Assembly: GCF_000348685.1 (NCBI RefSeq)
Contig: NZ_ANLA01000015.1
Coordinates: 124,001 to 188,000 of the forward strand
From: Xanthomarina gelatinilytica
GTDB lineage: Bacteria > Bacteroidota > Bacteroidia > Flavobacteriales > Flavobacteriaceae
DNA length: 64,000 bases
Direction: 5' to 3'
The translations under genes were made by a program, and so were the position numbers. Below are positions 32,453-37,111 of the stretch, one piece after another; the first letter of the stretch is position 1, and each line of letters opens with the position of its first letter. The notes under the pieces are model-generated. The model was not told the DNA's origin. It saw only the letters and a list, made by a program, of their open reading frames with translations, and made no database searches.

Positions 32453-32914
32453 TTATTTCCAAAATTCATCTTCCAGATTGTCTTTAAAAGATTCTGGTTG
32501 ATGAATTTTTTCTATGTGAAGCAATTGCTCTTCACTTGCAACTTTTTGTATTTCAGGAAACAGTACACGTTCTTCAAACCTAATGTGTTGTTCCAGTTCT
32601 TCTTCAATTTTGCTAAGGGTTTTGGGATTGGCTTCCGTTTCAGAAAACAAACGTCTTAAACGTCTGTGTTCTGCCAAGGCACGTTTTATCAATTCGTTAT
32701 CACTTTTCAAAATAGAGAAAATATAATTTTCTTCCATTTCAAAATGTGGTGTTAAATGTGTTTCAAAAAACCAATCCGCATAAATTTTCATGCGTTTAGG
32801 ATCTATATTCTTGTTAAAACCATTTCTAATCTTCCAGGATAATAACAACCCATGGTGATGCTCTCTGCTTAATGGCTGTAACGCTTTATGTCTCTTTAAG
32901 GGTTTTGGTGTCAT
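32453..32914 (-). CDS. Hemerythrin-like domain protein
   Basis: The 153-residue four-helix-bundle protein has histidines and carboxylates at diiron-ligand spacing: PLSREHHHGLLL, FETHLTPHFEMEENYIFSIL, EHRRLRRLF and LEQHIRFEERVLFPEIQ. Such cytoplasmic proteins bind O2 or NO or sense them; in denitrification clusters an NO-scavenging or repair role fits. Its start overlaps the end of the polytopic membrane protein gene by 29 nt, so the two are translated from one message. Its stop is convergent with the porin gene. Confidence 0.85.
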   Translation of the reverse strand: MTPKPLKRHKALQPLSREHHHGLLLSWKIRNGFNKNIDPKRMKIYADWFFETHLTPHFEMEENYIFSILKSDNELIKRALAEHRRLRRLFSETEANPKTLSKIEEELEQHIRFEERVLFPEIQKVASEEQLLHIEKIHQPESFKDNLEDEFWK

Positions 32915-34097
32915 AATTATTAGGTTTTAAAATGTTTAATATAAGGCTTAAAATACCCAATGGCAACAACAAGCTGCTTATAAATAGCAGCAGGTAATAC
33001 TTTGGTATCAAACCAGCTCCAAAGTAAAACAAGCCTCCTTGTACAATTAAAATAAGTTCTGTAAGTACAAAGCCCAAAACAAAAACGTACATGCCTATGG
33101 TAAGGGTTTTATTGAGTTTCACCAATTTGGTTTGAAGGATATATGCAAACAAAAATCCAGAAATAACACCCAACATAGTTAAGTGAATAAAACCTATAAC
33201 CAAATTTCTATGTTGAAAGGCAGTATTGGATATATCTGGAATTAAAGACAAGGTTTGCAGACCTATTTTCAAAATGAAACAAAACATGGCGAATTGGAAC
33301 ATAAATCTGATGAGTTTGTGACTTTGTTTCAAAACAATTTTAAAAGGAGCCTTTATAAGTTTTATGAAAATAAGTAAAGCTGCTATTTGCAATACAACTC
33401 CCAACCCATTTAGCCATAACAAAACAGCATGTGGCACAAACCAATTTACAGGTAGTGCAAAGGTAAGGATGGTTGAGGCAATCAATAATTTAAAAAAACG
33501 TTGAAATTGTTTTGAGTCTGTAAGTTGAAGTTTATGAAAAAAGATAGCCAAAACGGATATCAAAAACCAACCATTAAACTGAAAATGTAAAAAAAACTGG
33601 ATGGCAATTTGATAAAAAGCAGAAGCTTGACCCAAAAGACCAACAGCTGGACCCAAACACCAAACACCTATGGTAGAAATGAGCATGAATAGAAGTGATG
33701 CCTTGAGCAAAAGTTTGGAGGTTGTGGATTGGGTTTTGTGATTTTTCCAAATAAGACGTACAAAATAATAACTGCAAAAAATATGGAGTGTGGAAAATGT
33801 AATGGAAATGGCTGCATATCCTTGAAACGGAAAGCTTAATAACATACCAACCACAGCAATTTGGGTCACCCAAAAAAGGGTATTGTATACCGGTTTTTTA
33901 TTGGGAATAAAATAACGAACAAATAAAGTGTAAATCATTAAATATACCCAGCCCAACATGGCTACATGTGAATGTGCATGCGTTAAAAACCTATAGTTGA
34001 TAGAAATTGGGAATAGGTAGGTATAGCGAAGGGCCAATCCTAAGATGGCAGCAATAAAAAAATTAATTAAGCAAGTAAAAACGAGCTTTTTGGGCAT
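32886..34097 (-). CDS. Polytopic NnrS/heme-copper-oxidase-like membrane protein
   Basis: The 403-residue protein has about 12 hydrophobic segments. Conserved-looking histidines are placed as in heme-copper oxidase subunit I or NnrS: THAHSHVAMLGWVY near the N-terminus, FLHFQFNGWFLIS in the centre, and QHRNLVIGFIHLTMLGVISG in the C-terminal half. This suggests heme or metal binding in the membrane. Its place between a hemerythrin-like gene and ric points to nitric oxide tolerance or reduction, but it is too short for NorB and lacks an obvious quinol or cytochrome module. The assignment is by architecture and context; the family name is uncertain. Confidence 0.65.
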   Translation of the reverse strand: MPKKLVFTCLINFFIAAILGLALRYTYLFPISINYRFLTHAHSHVAMLGWVYLMIYTLFVRYFIPNKKPVYNTLFWVTQIAVVGMLLSFPFQGYAAISITFSTLHIFCSYYFVRLIWKNHKTQSTTSKLLLKASLLFMLISTIGVWCLGPAVGLLGQASAFYQIAIQFFLHFQFNGWFLISVLAIFFHKLQLTDSKQFQRFFKLLIASTILTFALPVNWFVPHAVLLWLNGLGVVLQIAALLIFIKLIKAPFKIVLKQSHKLIRFMFQFAMFCFILKIGLQTLSLIPDISNTAFQHRNLVIGFIHLTMLGVISGFLFAYILQTKLVKLNKTLTIGMYVFVLGFVLTELILIVQGGLFYFGAGLIPKYYLLLFISSLLLPLGILSLILNILKPNNYDTKTLKET

Positions 34098-34135
34098 AAG
34101 GTTAAATTAATAGTTTGGGTAAAAGTAATGAATAA

Positions 34136-34227
34136 AAAAACACTTCTCTTGTATAAAAAACTACATGAACATAAATTTTCTCCTCAACAAATTTAAAACT
34201 ATAATTAATTACTCGAGAAGTGTTTTT
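34136..34227. repeat. 13-bp perfect inverted repeat with 66-nt loop between ric and the membrane protein gene
   Basis: AAAAACACTTCTC (34136-34148) and GAGAAGTGTTTTT (34215-34227) are perfect complements. On the minus strand the downstream arm runs into a T tract. This could be a long-loop terminator, a small RNA or the remnant of a miniature element. Confidence 0.5.
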
Positions 34228-34279
34228 GATAAACAACCATTACTAACATTAAACTATTTTATATATATTTTAAAATCGA

Positions 34280-34302
34280 GGAGCCCTTGGGGAAAAGGCT
34301 CC
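34280..34302 (-). terminator. Weak hairpin downstream of ric
   Basis: GGAGCC (34280-34285) pairs with GGCTCC (34297-34302) around 11 nt, followed on the minus strand by TCGATTTTAAAA. A short T tract makes it a weak terminator candidate for the ric gene. Confidence 0.45.
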
Positions 34303-34341
34303 CAGATTTAATTTAGAAAATATAATTGCTATTAATCATTC

Positions 34342-35073
34342 TTAAAGAAACGCTTTCTCTAATTTTGCAGCTTCAGGGAATAATATGTTATTTTCTAAAT
34401 GGATATGCAAGTGTAAATCTTTTTCAAATTCGTCCAGCATCGCAAACGTAACTCTATAGGTATTGCAAGCATCTGCAGGAGGATTGTAATTGTTTGTCAA
34501 TTCGGCAATTTGTCTAAAACGTTCCCCTTCATTGTCATGCTCTTGCATCATCATGGCAATAGGGTTTTCAACAGTGCCAAATTGTGGTGCTAAAATGGCT
34601 CCTTTGTCTATTTGTGCTTTAACCATTTTTTTAATGAATGGGAATAATATCAACTCCTCTTTTTTCATATGAGCTGCCAATTCCCCAGCAGAAGCTGTAA
34701 ACAATTCGTTTATTTTAAACAGTTCTGGGTGTCTTTCTCCATGAACCTTGCAAAGTTTGTCTAAAAACTGACGTAGTATAGGGATTTTTTCTTCCACATA
34801 TCTGTGATGTTTTTTCTCTATATATTCAGCCAATAGGTCCAAAGGCCAGGATTTGTAATCTATGGATTGGTTTGTGTTGGCAGTCAACACTTTGTCCAGT
34901 TCATTCAAAAGTTCGTTGCTGTCAATATTGTTTTTGGTGCAAACCTCTTCTATGGTTCTGTGCCCTTTACAGCAAAAATCTATGCCATATTTCGAGAATA
35001 CGCCTGCAGTTCTGTAATCTTCGGCAACATACTGTCCTATTTGTTTTTGAGTTTCTTTTCTTAATGTTTCCAT
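34342..35073 (-). CDS. ric: Iron-sulfur cluster repair di-iron protein (Ric/ScdA/YtfE)
   Basis: The 243-residue protein repairs iron-sulfur clusters damaged by NO or oxidants. An N-terminal ScdA_N domain (about 1-65) carries the paired cysteines in YGIDFCCKGHRTIEE. A hemerythrin-like domain follows, with diiron ligands in KKHHRYVEEKIPIL, HGERHPELFKI, AAHMKKEELILFPFI, MMQEHDNEGE and LHLHIHLENNILFPEA. I use the ATG at 35073; the open frame starts two codons earlier at a TTG. A GGAT-N6-ATCC operator-like element lies just upstream. It lies beside the NO-related regulator gene. Confidence 0.94.
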   Translation of the reverse strand: METLRKETQKQIGQYVAEDYRTAGVFSKYGIDFCCKGHRTIEEVCTKNNIDSNELLNELDKVLTANTNQSIDYKSWPLDLLAEYIEKKHHRYVEEKIPILRQFLDKLCKVHGERHPELFKINELFTASAGELAAHMKKEELILFPFIKKMVKAQIDKGAILAPQFGTVENPIAMMMQEHDNEGERFRQIAELTNNYNPPADACNTYRVTFAMLDEFEKDLHLHIHLENNILFPEAAKLEKAFL

Positions 35074-35085
35074 AATCAATTTATT

Positions 35086-35101
35086 CGGATGTTTTTATCC
35101 T
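35086..35101. promoter_or_regulatory. Candidate Rrf2 operator upstream of ric
   Basis: CGGATGTTTTTATCCT has arms GGAT and ATCC separated by 6 nt, the same geometry as the element upstream of rrf2. It lies 13-28 nt before the ric ATG. Confidence 0.55.
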
Positions 35102-35119
35102 ATTTGTAATCAAATTTTT

Positions 35120-35554
35120 TTAAGTCTTTAAAAAAGCGACACCAGATTTTATATCTAGGGCCAACTCTTCTAAGTTGGTATTTTCCAACATGTATTTTAA
35201 TTCGTCCCTAACCGATTTAAACTTATCATGTACAGGACATGGATGTTCTTCATCACAAGTATGTAAGCCCAAACCACAGCCTCTATAAATGCTGTCGCCA
35301 TCAATGGCATTTACAATTTGAGATAATTTAATGCTTGATATGGCATGTTTGTCTATCTCAAAGCCACCATAGGCGCCTTTTACAGAATTTATAATGCTAT
35401 GTCTCGCCAGGTCTTGTAAAATTTTAGCTGTAAATGCTTCTGGTGAATTAATTTCCTTGGCAATAGCTTTAAGGCTTACCCTCTTACCTTCATAAGAGTT
35501 TAGCGCTATAAAAATAGACGCTTTAATACCATATTCGCATGCTTTGGAAAACAT
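35120..35554 (-). CDS. Rrf2-family transcriptional regulator (NsrR/IscR-like)
   Basis: The 144-residue protein has a winged helix (about 1-65; YEGKRVSLKAIAKEINSPEAF, TAKILQDLARHSIINSVKGAYGGFEI). Three cysteines, in CGLGLHTCDEEHPCPVHD, are spaced C-x6-C-x5-C and could bind an iron-sulfur cluster. Rrf2 proteins such as NsrR sense NO through this cluster and derepress detoxification genes. Its position beside ric and the nirK cluster supports that role. The promoter's -33 box lies inside a palindrome of the same type as at ric and nirK, so autorepression is likely. Confidence 0.88.
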   Translation of the reverse strand: MFSKACEYGIKASIFIALNSYEGKRVSLKAIAKEINSPEAFTAKILQDLARHSIINSVKGAYGGFEIDKHAISSIKLSQIVNAIDGDSIYRGCGLGLHTCDEEHPCPVHDKFKSVRDELKYMLENTNLEELALDIKSGVAFLKT

Positions 35555-35574
35555 ATATTAGTTTTTATTTGGTA

Positions 35575-35605
35575 CAAATGTATGACAAAATCTTAATACG
35601 GACAA
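35575..35605 (-). promoter_or_regulatory. Promoter of the Rrf2 regulator gene
   Basis: On the minus strand a TTG (35605-35603), 20 nt of spacer and TACATTTG (35582-35575) fit the Flavobacterium consensus. The ATG follows about 20 nt after the -7 element. Confidence 0.7.
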
Positions 35606-35614
35606 ATTTATCCG
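35599..35614. promoter_or_regulatory. Candidate Rrf2 autoregulatory operator
   Basis: CGGACAAATTTATCCG is an inverted repeat with one mismatched pair, containing GGAY-N6-ATCC. It covers the -33 TTG of the rrf2 promoter, so a bound protein would block transcription. Confidence 0.6.
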
Positions 35615-35880
35615 AATTAAATTATGTTAAATTTTTTTAAATCCAATGTTAGGCTTTTCAATTCTTAAAATAAGGTTAATTACTAAGGAATAGTTTGAGA
35701 TATATCTTTTATTGGTTATGTTAGCAGTGTCATACTTTTAGGGTTTTTTAAAATGATTATTTCTAAATTTAAACATATCATTTGTATACAGATTACATTA
35801 AACGGTGTTTTAACAGACACGTTTAGTTTTTTTAATAAAGTATCCTTTAGAAAATCCAAAATTATCTTCCTGAATTAAGT
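35615..35880. other. AT-rich intergenic stretch, nothing further supported
   Basis: I find no ORF with coding character, no perfect TAnnTTTG element and no strong hairpin here. It presumably holds the promoter and 5' part of the transcript carrying the structured region and the small ORF downstream. Confidence 0.5.
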
Positions 35881-35988
35881 AGCACCAGCGAGTGTGCTCT
35901 AACACCTTATTTTAATCCAATAACATATCAAGTCTTGGCACTATGCCTTGATGGTTACTCGCTTAGGATAAATTTTAAACAATAAGGT
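35881..35988 (+). ncRNA. Candidate structured (pseudoknotted) RNA leader
   Basis: Four perfect helices can be drawn. P1: AGCAC (35881-35885) with GTGCT (35894-35898), enclosing an 8-nt loop. Loop bases AGCGAGT (35887-35893) pair with ACTCGCT (35957-35963) as a pseudoknot. ACCTTATT (35904-35911) pairs with AATAAGGT (35981-35988). Inside that, ATCAAG (35927-35932) pairs with CTTGAT (35947-35952) with three further inner pairs. It lies 45 nt before a 35-codon ORF on the same strand, so it could be a cis-regulatory leader. No known riboswitch class is recognised, and the structure is drawn from one sequence only. Confidence 0.5.
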
Positions 35989-36033
35989 TATGGTCATTAA
36001 TATATTAATAATAATCCTTTAAATAATACTAAG

Positions 36034-36141
36034 ATGGCAAGAGGAAAAAATTTAAAAGCGCCAAAAACTGATTTAAAAGAAAAAAGGCAAGAAAAAATTT
36101 TAAAGAAATTGGAAGAAAAGAAAATGCGTAAACGCAGATAA
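36034..36141 (+). CDS. 35-residue highly basic small protein
   Basis: The ATG at 36034 opens a 35-codon frame ending in TAA at 36141. The peptide starts MARGKNLKAPKTDLKEKRQE and ends KKLEEKKMRKRR; over 40 percent of residues are Lys or Arg, and the middle should be one amphipathic helix. Basic peptides of this kind often bind RNA or ribosomes. The basic N-termini of some flavobacterial cold-shock proteins are similar in composition. Supporting features are the structured leader upstream, a perfect terminator 62 nt downstream and no overlap with another gene. Function unknown. Confidence 0.6.
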   Translation: MARGKNLKAPKTDLKEKRQEKILKKLEEKKMRKRR

Positions 36142-36202
36142 CGATAGTTCGATCAACAAGTTCATGAAAATTGAAATGTTGAATTTTTTAGTTAAGTGTA
36201 AT

Positions 36203-36232
36203 AACCCCTTGAATTGCCATGTTCAAGGGGTT
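36203..36232. terminator. Bidirectional terminator between the small ORF and the SDR gene
   Basis: AACCCCTTGAA (36203-36213) pairs perfectly with TTCAAGGGGTT (36222-36232) around an 8-nt loop, followed by TTATTTTTTATT on the plus strand. It abuts the stop of the convergent SDR gene. Confidence 0.88.
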
Positions 36233-37111
36233 TTATTTTTTATTGGCACGAATCATAGCTTCCAGCTGGTCCCACATTTGTTGAGGGATTTCTTCTAGAA
36301 GATTGAATTGTCCAGCTCCTTTTAGCCACTCGCCACCATCAATGGTAATTACTTCGCCATTTACATAGCTGGAAAAATCGGAAACCAAATATGCTGCCAG
36401 ATTGGCAAGCTCCTGATGTTCTCCCACACGATTTAAAGGTACTTTTTTAGTCATATCAAATTTCTCTTTAAGATCTCCAGGTAAAAGTCTGTCCCATGCT
36501 CCCTTTGTAGGGAAAGGTCCTGGTGCAATGGCATTAAAACGCATGCCATATTTTGCCCATTCCACAGCTAGACTTCTGGTCATGGCCAATACACCAGCTT
36601 TTGCTGTGGCACTGGGAACCACATAAGCAGAACCTGTCCAAGCATAGGTTGTAACAATATTTAAAACTACTGTGTTGGTGTGTTTGCTGTCTATCCAGTG
36701 TTTTCCAAAAGCTAAGGTGCAATTTTTGGTCCCTTTTAAAACAATGTCTATAACCGTATCAAAGGCATTTGCAGACAGACGCTCTGTAGGACTGATAAAA
36801 TTTCCTGCAGCATTGTTCAATAAAATATCTACTTTTCCAAAGCTTTCAAGAACTTGGTTGAGCATGTGTTCCACTTGGTCGTAATGCCTGACATCGCATT
36901 GGATAGCTAGACAAGTACCACTAGTTTCTGTTTCCAATTCTTTAGCAGTTGCCTGTAGTTTCTCTAAATTCCTGGAGGTAATGGCAACTTGTGCACCAAG
37001 TTCCAAAAAATATTTGGTCATTGCTTTTCCAAGACCAGAGCCACCTCCTGTAACTACGATGGTTTTTCCTTTTAAAGCGTTATCGCGAAGCATTTTTGCT
37101 GTGTGGCTCAT
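36233..37111 (-). CDS. SDR-family oxidoreductase, 2,4-dienoyl-CoA reductase type
   Basis: The 292-residue NAD(P)H-dependent reductase has a TGGGSGLGKAM cofactor loop, NNAAGNF and the family segment YVVPSATAKAGVLAMTRSLA followed by YGMRFNAIAPGPF. The VVPSA-x-AKAG pattern replaces the usual YxxxK and is the signature of 2,4-dienoyl-CoA reductases (DECR), which reduce polyunsaturated acyl-CoA during beta-oxidation. Its neighbour is the methylmalonyl-CoA mutase pair, which fits fatty acid and propionate breakdown. Length is normal. Confidence 0.87.
   Translation of the reverse strand: MSHTAKMLRDNALKGKTIVVTGGGSGLGKAMTKYFLELGAQVAITSRNLEKLQATAKELETETSGTCLAIQCDVRHYDQVEHMLNQVLESFGKVDILLNNAAGNFISPTERLSANAFDTVIDIVLKGTKNCTLAFGKHWIDSKHTNTVVLNIVTTYAWTGSAYVVPSATAKAGVLAMTRSLAVEWAKYGMRFNAIAPGPFPTKGAWDRLLPGDLKEKFDMTKKVPLNRVGEHQELANLAAYLVSDFSSYVNGEVITIDGGEWLKGAGQFNLLEEIPQQMWDQLEAMIRANKK

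Follow-up and report, generated by a model that had tools for sequence, protein, structure and literature searches.

A conserved pseudoknotted RNA linked to a small basic protein gene in Flavobacteriia

We describe a class of structured RNAs and a family of small proteins from Flavobacteriia, neither of which was matched in the libraries searched. Both were analysed from a 64,000-nucleotide (nt) stretch of Xanthomarina gelatinilytica, a Flavobacteriaceae genome (G000, contig 15, 124001–188000; hereafter, the window). Here the 479 nt of intergenic DNA 5′ of a short open reading frame (ORF) contain an RNA domain of ~140 nt (130–155 nt in relatives), which ends 45 nt ahead of the ORF. The RNA is a genuine conserved structured RNA with a pseudoknot, it is linked to the protein gene, and the two have a patchy distribution, occurring here and there among marine bacteria. 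RNA and tiny basic protein probably form a matched RNA–protein module.

Covariation supports a conserved pseudoknotted fold

An earlier note, made from the sequence of the window, had pointed to four perfect helices (5, 7, 8 and 6+3 base pairs, bp) within 108 nt, while cautioning that in AT-rich DNA single 7-bp matches arise by chance and that covariation was required. Read directly, all four lie inside 35881–35988 (Table 1). As a single sequence, the window copy folds unexceptionally, with a nested energy (which excludes the pseudoknot) of −21.9 kcal/mol, a z-score of −0.94 and 37 of 200 shuffles equally good; since this is no better than shuffles, covariation was needed, as the note had said. 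The same result speaks for one rival reading, namely that the helices arose by chance in AT-rich DNA and that the ORF is accidental, to which we give almost no credence, as it is refuted by the conservation and covariation described below.

We compared 40 readable copies, comprising the window and 39 loci with an intact ORF from named genomes. When folded, most share a common plan consisting of an outer helix P2, an inner helix P2b and a variable hairpin P3, besides hairpin P1 and its loop; L034, L040 and L044 are examples of copies with other best folds. Covariation was analysed in 29 of the 40, the 11 omitted copies being L034 and L058, which carry an insert, and close relatives of retained rows. 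The check that the earlier note had proposed, conservation and covariation of the helices in homologues, was run; helices and ORF both proved conserved, and the proposal was not refuted.

P2 and P2b were assessed by a pairing test that uses no alignment, in which duplex energies were computed for each copy's 5′ strand region against every copy's 3′ region. Own partners summed to −396.6 kcal/mol, compared with a permuted mean of −255.9 (standard deviation 13.5, z about −10.5; 29 copies), and none of 100,000 permutations was as low. Reversed and complemented controls gave z −1.7 and −0.6, respectively. Copy by copy, the own partner was the best in 7 of the 29 only, and for the window copy four foreign partners were equal or better. 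The complementary strand of P2/P2b scored nearly as well (−386.6 versus −396.6); covariation cannot decide the strand, and the sense was therefore taken from the ORF and the terminator.

In P1, the pair at columns 31/48 is A-U in 18 copies, G-C in 4 and unpaired in 7 of the 29, while L061, L066 and L068, apparently in a shifted register, are scored as unpaired at three other pairs. Four core pairs of the pseudoknot are invariant, and the CTCG of its second strand is invariant in 29 of 29 copies, yet lay outside the search pattern. Next to this core, pair 38/132 is GC in 13 copies, GU in 7, AU in 6, CG in 1 and unpaired in 2 (29-copy MAFFT alignment); in the same alignment pair 43/127 is UA in 26, GC in 1 and unpaired in 2. 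One lineage shows a double change from U-A to G-C and two have U facing U. The outermost pair, 37/133, is paired in 10 of the 29 only, so that the 7-bp pseudoknot of the earlier note stands as a pairing but loses its seventh pair, leaving a shared core of 5–6 bp. P1 and the pseudoknot together reach a covariation score of 0.128, which 3 of 500 shuffles attain; after a slide of +1 the score is still 0.115, though paired cells drop from 87% to 34%. On these shuffle and slide controls, covariation in this part is modest by itself, and the strong evidence is that from P2/P2b. P3 folds with a mean z of −2.7 against mononucleotide shuffles, with z below −1 in 27 of 29 copies.

Conservation sets in sharply at −9 of ATYATC (26 rows). 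The conserved RNA accordingly begins near 35851, about 30 nt upstream of 35881, where the earlier note had placed its start; the helices of that proposal hold and its start does not. Mean pairwise identity among 30 copies is 0.83 in the 5′ motif, 0.74 in P1, 0.67 in the ORF and 0.51–0.54 in the flanks, and sequence between P1 and the start region falls to 0.54, equal to background, while the helices persist. The motif value is inflated because most copies were found via the motif, and the comparison was therefore repeated on 10 copies found via the protein, among which identity is 0.78 in the motif versus 0.67 in the ORF.

Further pairings were considered. Between the 5′ motif and the ORF, pairing does not exceed that of synonymous shuffles (mean z −0.1). 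The 50 nt upstream of the motif show an unexplained excess of pairing with the P2 5′ strand (16 of 20,000 permutations; 29 copies), and a competing helix is possible. A second pseudoknot, ACATCC with GGATGT, seen in Aequorivita, was rejected, having no cross-lineage support (z 0.14). Several sequence features of individual lineages were also noted. In the Aequorivita copies (among L036–L081), ACATCC lies inside P2 and GGATGT just 3′ of P2, and both hardly vary; several Aequorivita also have CGGAAA, similar to the P2 3′ strand, in the 50 nt upstream of the motif. The two Salegentibacter copies, L034 and L058, are ~50 nt longer ahead of P3; the added sequence has hairpins, one of which encloses a further ACTCG.

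Table 1 Features of the unit, in window coordinates.
Feature	Position	Strand	Remarks
Conserved 5′ motif, apparently single-stranded, consensus [TA]AARYNNAAAATYATCTTYCNGA	35851–35873	+	Most conserved stretch of the unit
P1 hairpin, AGCAC 35881–35885 / GTGCT 35894–35898, 5 bp, loop CAGCGAGT	35881–35898	+	
Pseudoknot strand 1, AGCGAGT	35887–35893	+	7 bp with ACTCGCT, read directly
P2 5′ strand, ACCTTATT	35904–35911	+	8 bp with the 3′ strand; alignment-free covariation test
P2b 5′ strand, ATCC	35915–35918	+	Longer in many relatives
P3 hairpin, ATCAAG 35927–35932 / CTTGAT 35947–35952 plus GCA/TGC (6+3)	35927–35952	+	Sequence and length variable
Pseudoknot strand 2, ACTCGCT	35957–35963	+	CTCG invariant in 29/29 aligned rows
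P2b 3′ strand, GGAT	35966–35969	+	Folding and covariation test
P2 3′ strand, AATAAGGT	35981–35988	+	Alignment-free covariation test
Translation initiation region, TTTAAA at −16 to −11, A at −3	36018–36033	+	Start-site adenines in relatives
ORF, 35-residue basic protein (34–41 residues in relatives)	36034–36141	+	dN<dS; co-occurrence with the RNA
Intrinsic terminator closing the unit, hairpin 36203–36232 and T-run	36203–36240	+	Terminator scan

The RNA is followed by a conserved gene with its own terminator

The ORF at 36034–36141 was described earlier as 35 residues long and over 40% Lys/Arg, in agreement with a count by eye of 16 Lys/Arg among 35 residues (46%). Of 50 pairs computed, all 47 with a finite synonymous rate (dS) had a lower nonsynonymous rate (dN), the sums being 2.8 for dN and 43.0 for dS, indicating that the ORF is under purifying selection. 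Searches with 25 protein members gave no credible match in Pfam (best E 0.016), NCBIfam (0.091) or PHROGs (0.041); the best PDB matches (E 0.26 and 1.9), which involve designed proteins or similar entries, are not credible either, and PADLOC returned zero matches for 25 peptides.

Passages of PMC6847099 give adenines at −3, −6, −12 and −13 as positive determinants of efficient initiation in F. johnsoniae. Among our 40 copies, A is found at −3 in 37, at −12 in 39, at −13 in 36 and at −6 in only 19, and the ORF thus carries a strong start site. P2 ends 30–51 nt upstream of the ATG (29 copies), the start site lies outside every conserved helix, and between RNA and ORF we saw no terminator in the copies read; a simple on/off leader is therefore not obvious. 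The earlier suggestion of a structured leader controlling a small basic-protein gene is upheld as regards the structured RNA and the conserved gene; translational control by the leader, and binding of RNA or ribosomes by the peptide, are hypotheses.

The strong terminator that the earlier note had assigned to the ORF was recovered at 36203–36240 and is the only one in 35555–36300 (shuffles, 0.2 ± 0.4). A first scan restricted to loops of 3–8 nt detected terminators in 12 of 39 copies (16 of 390 shuffles). Using a wider scan, which was designed after long loops had been noticed by eye, we found a terminator-like hairpin in 33 of 40 copies, at most 150 nt after the stop codon; among shuffles the figure was 7 of 400.

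The shortness of the unit, its separate terminator, the conserved segment that lies outside the helices and the 35-codon ORF would also suit a dual-function small RNA (sRNA), in which the unpaired AUCUUYC acts as a seed for mRNAs in trans and the encoded peptide acts on a protein. SgrS/SgrT is a dual-function sRNA with a peptide. To our knowledge, however, known dual-function RNAs lack such an elaborate conserved pseudoknot, and the patchy occurrence across families better fits a self-contained module, so that we regard this reading as unlikely. VcdRP, a dual-function RNA with a 29-residue protein, provides a precedent for it (PMC8672173). Like SgrS/SgrT and VcdRP, the present unit is short and combines an RNA element with a small protein; unlike them, it has an elaborate covarying pseudoknot fold upstream of the ORF.

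Comparison with known RNA classes

At gathering score, Rfam 15 yielded no match to the RNA domain in the window, nor in 15 of the 41 named copies (see below), only tRNA elsewhere being returned in both cases. A permissive search of 35555–36240 (E≤5) gave five weak matches, none of them over the RNA domain. These results accord with the earlier statement that no known riboswitch class was matched. A literature search that took in few subscription journals listed no description of the RNA.

An invariant unpaired motif together with a pseudoknot is typical ligand-pocket anatomy, and a metabolite riboswitch governing one small-protein gene, with the invariant 5′ strand and the pseudoknot as its ligand pocket, has to be weighed. 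The Downstream-peptide motif, RF01704, was subsequently reclassified as a glutamine riboswitch located before small proteins. It resembles our RNA in being a structured pseudoknotted RNA before a small-protein gene; unlike our RNA it comes from another phylum, and its model matched neither the window nor 15 relatives. Passages of PMC2864571 list RF01704 for cyanobacteria, and it is the precedent for a riboswitch here. Against a riboswitch stand the single gene family found downstream in all 39 loci whose ORF is readable and intact, the lack of any visible expression platform, and the Rfam searches, which gave no match at gathering score (window and 15 relatives) and none over the RNA at E≤5. 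We consider a riboswitch a rather improbable explanation.

A table in PMC2864571 also lists 6S-flavo (RF01685) and Flavo-1 (RF01705) as structured RNAs of Bacteroidetes; neither model matched the present RNA in the window or 15 relatives. In type III toxin–antitoxin systems, a tandem-repeat RNA antitoxin accompanies an endoribonuclease gene; this candidate was rejected, as the present locus has one RNA unit and a 35-residue peptide, with no PADLOC match for 25 peptides.

RNA and protein gene are linked and patchily distributed

We examined overlapping samples from the family, order and phylum. A protein search of 199 family genomes, among them that of the window, identified the gene in 8; a profile of 25 relatives recovered the identical 8 at E≤1.9e-13 (next match, 0.016). 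A pattern for the RNA 5′ domain found the same 8 genomes as the protein, as did a covariance model of that domain at E≤1.4e-8 (next match, 1.2e-3). Only these 8 strong matches were counted; at E≤1 the RNA model matches 159 of 199 genomes, nearly all noise, and the protein profile 26. This co-occurrence test is not fully blind, since the copies behind the RNA pattern and model had initially been recognised next to the ORF. The protein was present in 4 of 196 genomes of the order sample and the RNA in 3 of 395 of the phylum sample (E≤1e-4), own genome included in both. One of the four in the order sample, G042, is outside the family and has the RNA upstream of the protein gene. Both parts are also present in another of the four, G500, whose motif is short of three bases, so that the strict pattern would have missed it. 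Within the window's genus, 5 of 8 genomes, its own among them, carry the RNA.

This distribution bears on a further reading, in which a lineage-specific ribosome-associated peptide is regulated through a leader that mimics its rRNA site. The peptide is akin to small ribosomal proteins in size and charge and has a good start site. Ribosomal protein leaders are described in Flavobacteria (passages of PMC7247131), and the present RNA is likewise a structured 5′ element of these bacteria that precedes a small basic protein. Unlike their products, the protein matches no ribosomal protein (no credible match in Pfam, NCBIfam or PDB), and the lack of a strong match in 191 of 199 family genomes argues that it is not core. 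We judge a ribosomal-type leader to be quite improbable.

Named genomes were scanned with the RNA pattern only, the ORF not being required, and 50 stretches were returned. Of these, 41 scored at least 50.3 bits with the RNA model and nine at most 19.1 bits, a scoring that followed selection and used a model trained on most of the 41. The nine (L033, L049, L056, L071 and L075–L079, three of them in Bacteroidota bins) were rejected as chance pattern matches; seven have no basic ORF downstream, and L071 and L079 have an unrelated one. Among the 41 named Bacteroidota loci, 39 have an intact small basic ORF that starts 155–220 nt after the motif. In L042:518-900 (Flavivirga sp. 57AJ16) the RNA is kept and the ORF leaves the family sequence after ~18 codons, making this a broken copy, while in L045 the sequence stretch ends before the ORF is complete. 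L070 is labelled Flammeovirgaceae but is a metagenome bin, which makes its host uncertain. An exact-pattern search of viral contigs gave no match, and neither did tblastn against plasmids and phages, where a query this rich in Lys may be masked by the low-complexity filter.

Neighbouring genes are common to the units within several genera and mostly differ between genera, with few clusters crossing them. Among genomes of the window's genus, one or both flanks are common to G000, G001, G003 and G004. The unit is absent from G005 and G007, of which the former retains the two flanks and the latter the Rrf2 side; X. spongicola (G002), unlike its congeners, has the unit on another contig than the Rrf2 region. 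A tree of 42 units groups X. spongicola with Altibacter, Confluentibacter and Ulvibacter (99/96), apart from three congeners (96/95); the row of the window forms a long branch of unsure placement. Placement and tree suggest horizontal transfer, although loss and rearrangement would be compatible with the same sequence data.

A candidate RNA–peptide circuit

Within the probable module, the reading that we favour, tentatively, is that the basic peptide binds its own RNA, resulting in autoregulation or a small ribonucleoprotein (RNP). RNA domain and ORF would lie on one transcript, and the invariant 5′ strand with P1 and the pseudoknot is the candidate binding site of the encoded peptide. When abundant, the peptide would bind its own 5′ untranslated region and lower expression via decay, elongation or ribosome loading; alternatively, it may stay bound to the RNA as a small RNP. 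Such a closed circuit needs no host partner, which would explain why both parts travel together. The higher conservation of the motif than of the ORF, even in protein-found copies, is as expected of a binding site.

Several points weigh against this reading. Basic residues alone are no proof of RNA binding. P2 stops short of the start site, and we detected no alternative fold that involves the ATG, which makes the step from binding to control a guess. Matches to a promoter are weak taken together, with a mean score of 7.2 versus 6.9 in shuffles. L042 keeps the RNA with a broken ORF, and diverged RNAs lacking an ORF could be missed by a pattern and model derived from ORF-linked copies.

A bolder version, which we hold to be doubtful, is a minimal, horizontally mobile RNP in which the ~140-nt pseudoknotted RNA and a dedicated 35-residue RNA-binding protein, encoded in one short cassette, would act in trans on a common cellular machine, for instance the ribosome or RNA polymerase. 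With one RNA fold so closely coupled to one tiny basic protein, in a cassette that seems to move between genera, the unit provides a compact system in which to test how a short peptide recognizes a pseudoknot and whether RNA–peptide pairs of this kind spread together.

Genomic surroundings of the unit

Searches of the G000 assembly for small- and large-subunit ribosomal RNA matched neither, despite a completeness rating of 99.98%. In the window, the unit is flanked downstream by a convergent short-chain dehydrogenase and a methylmalonyl-CoA mutase; on its upstream side lie a ScdA-like gene and a divergent Rrf2 regulator. The upstream region, 32886–35554, encodes the Rrf2 regulator, a ScdA-N/hemerythrin protein and a 403-residue membrane-like protein without a Pfam match. 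This cluster resembles a nitric-oxide response cluster, NnrS-like being a tentative name.
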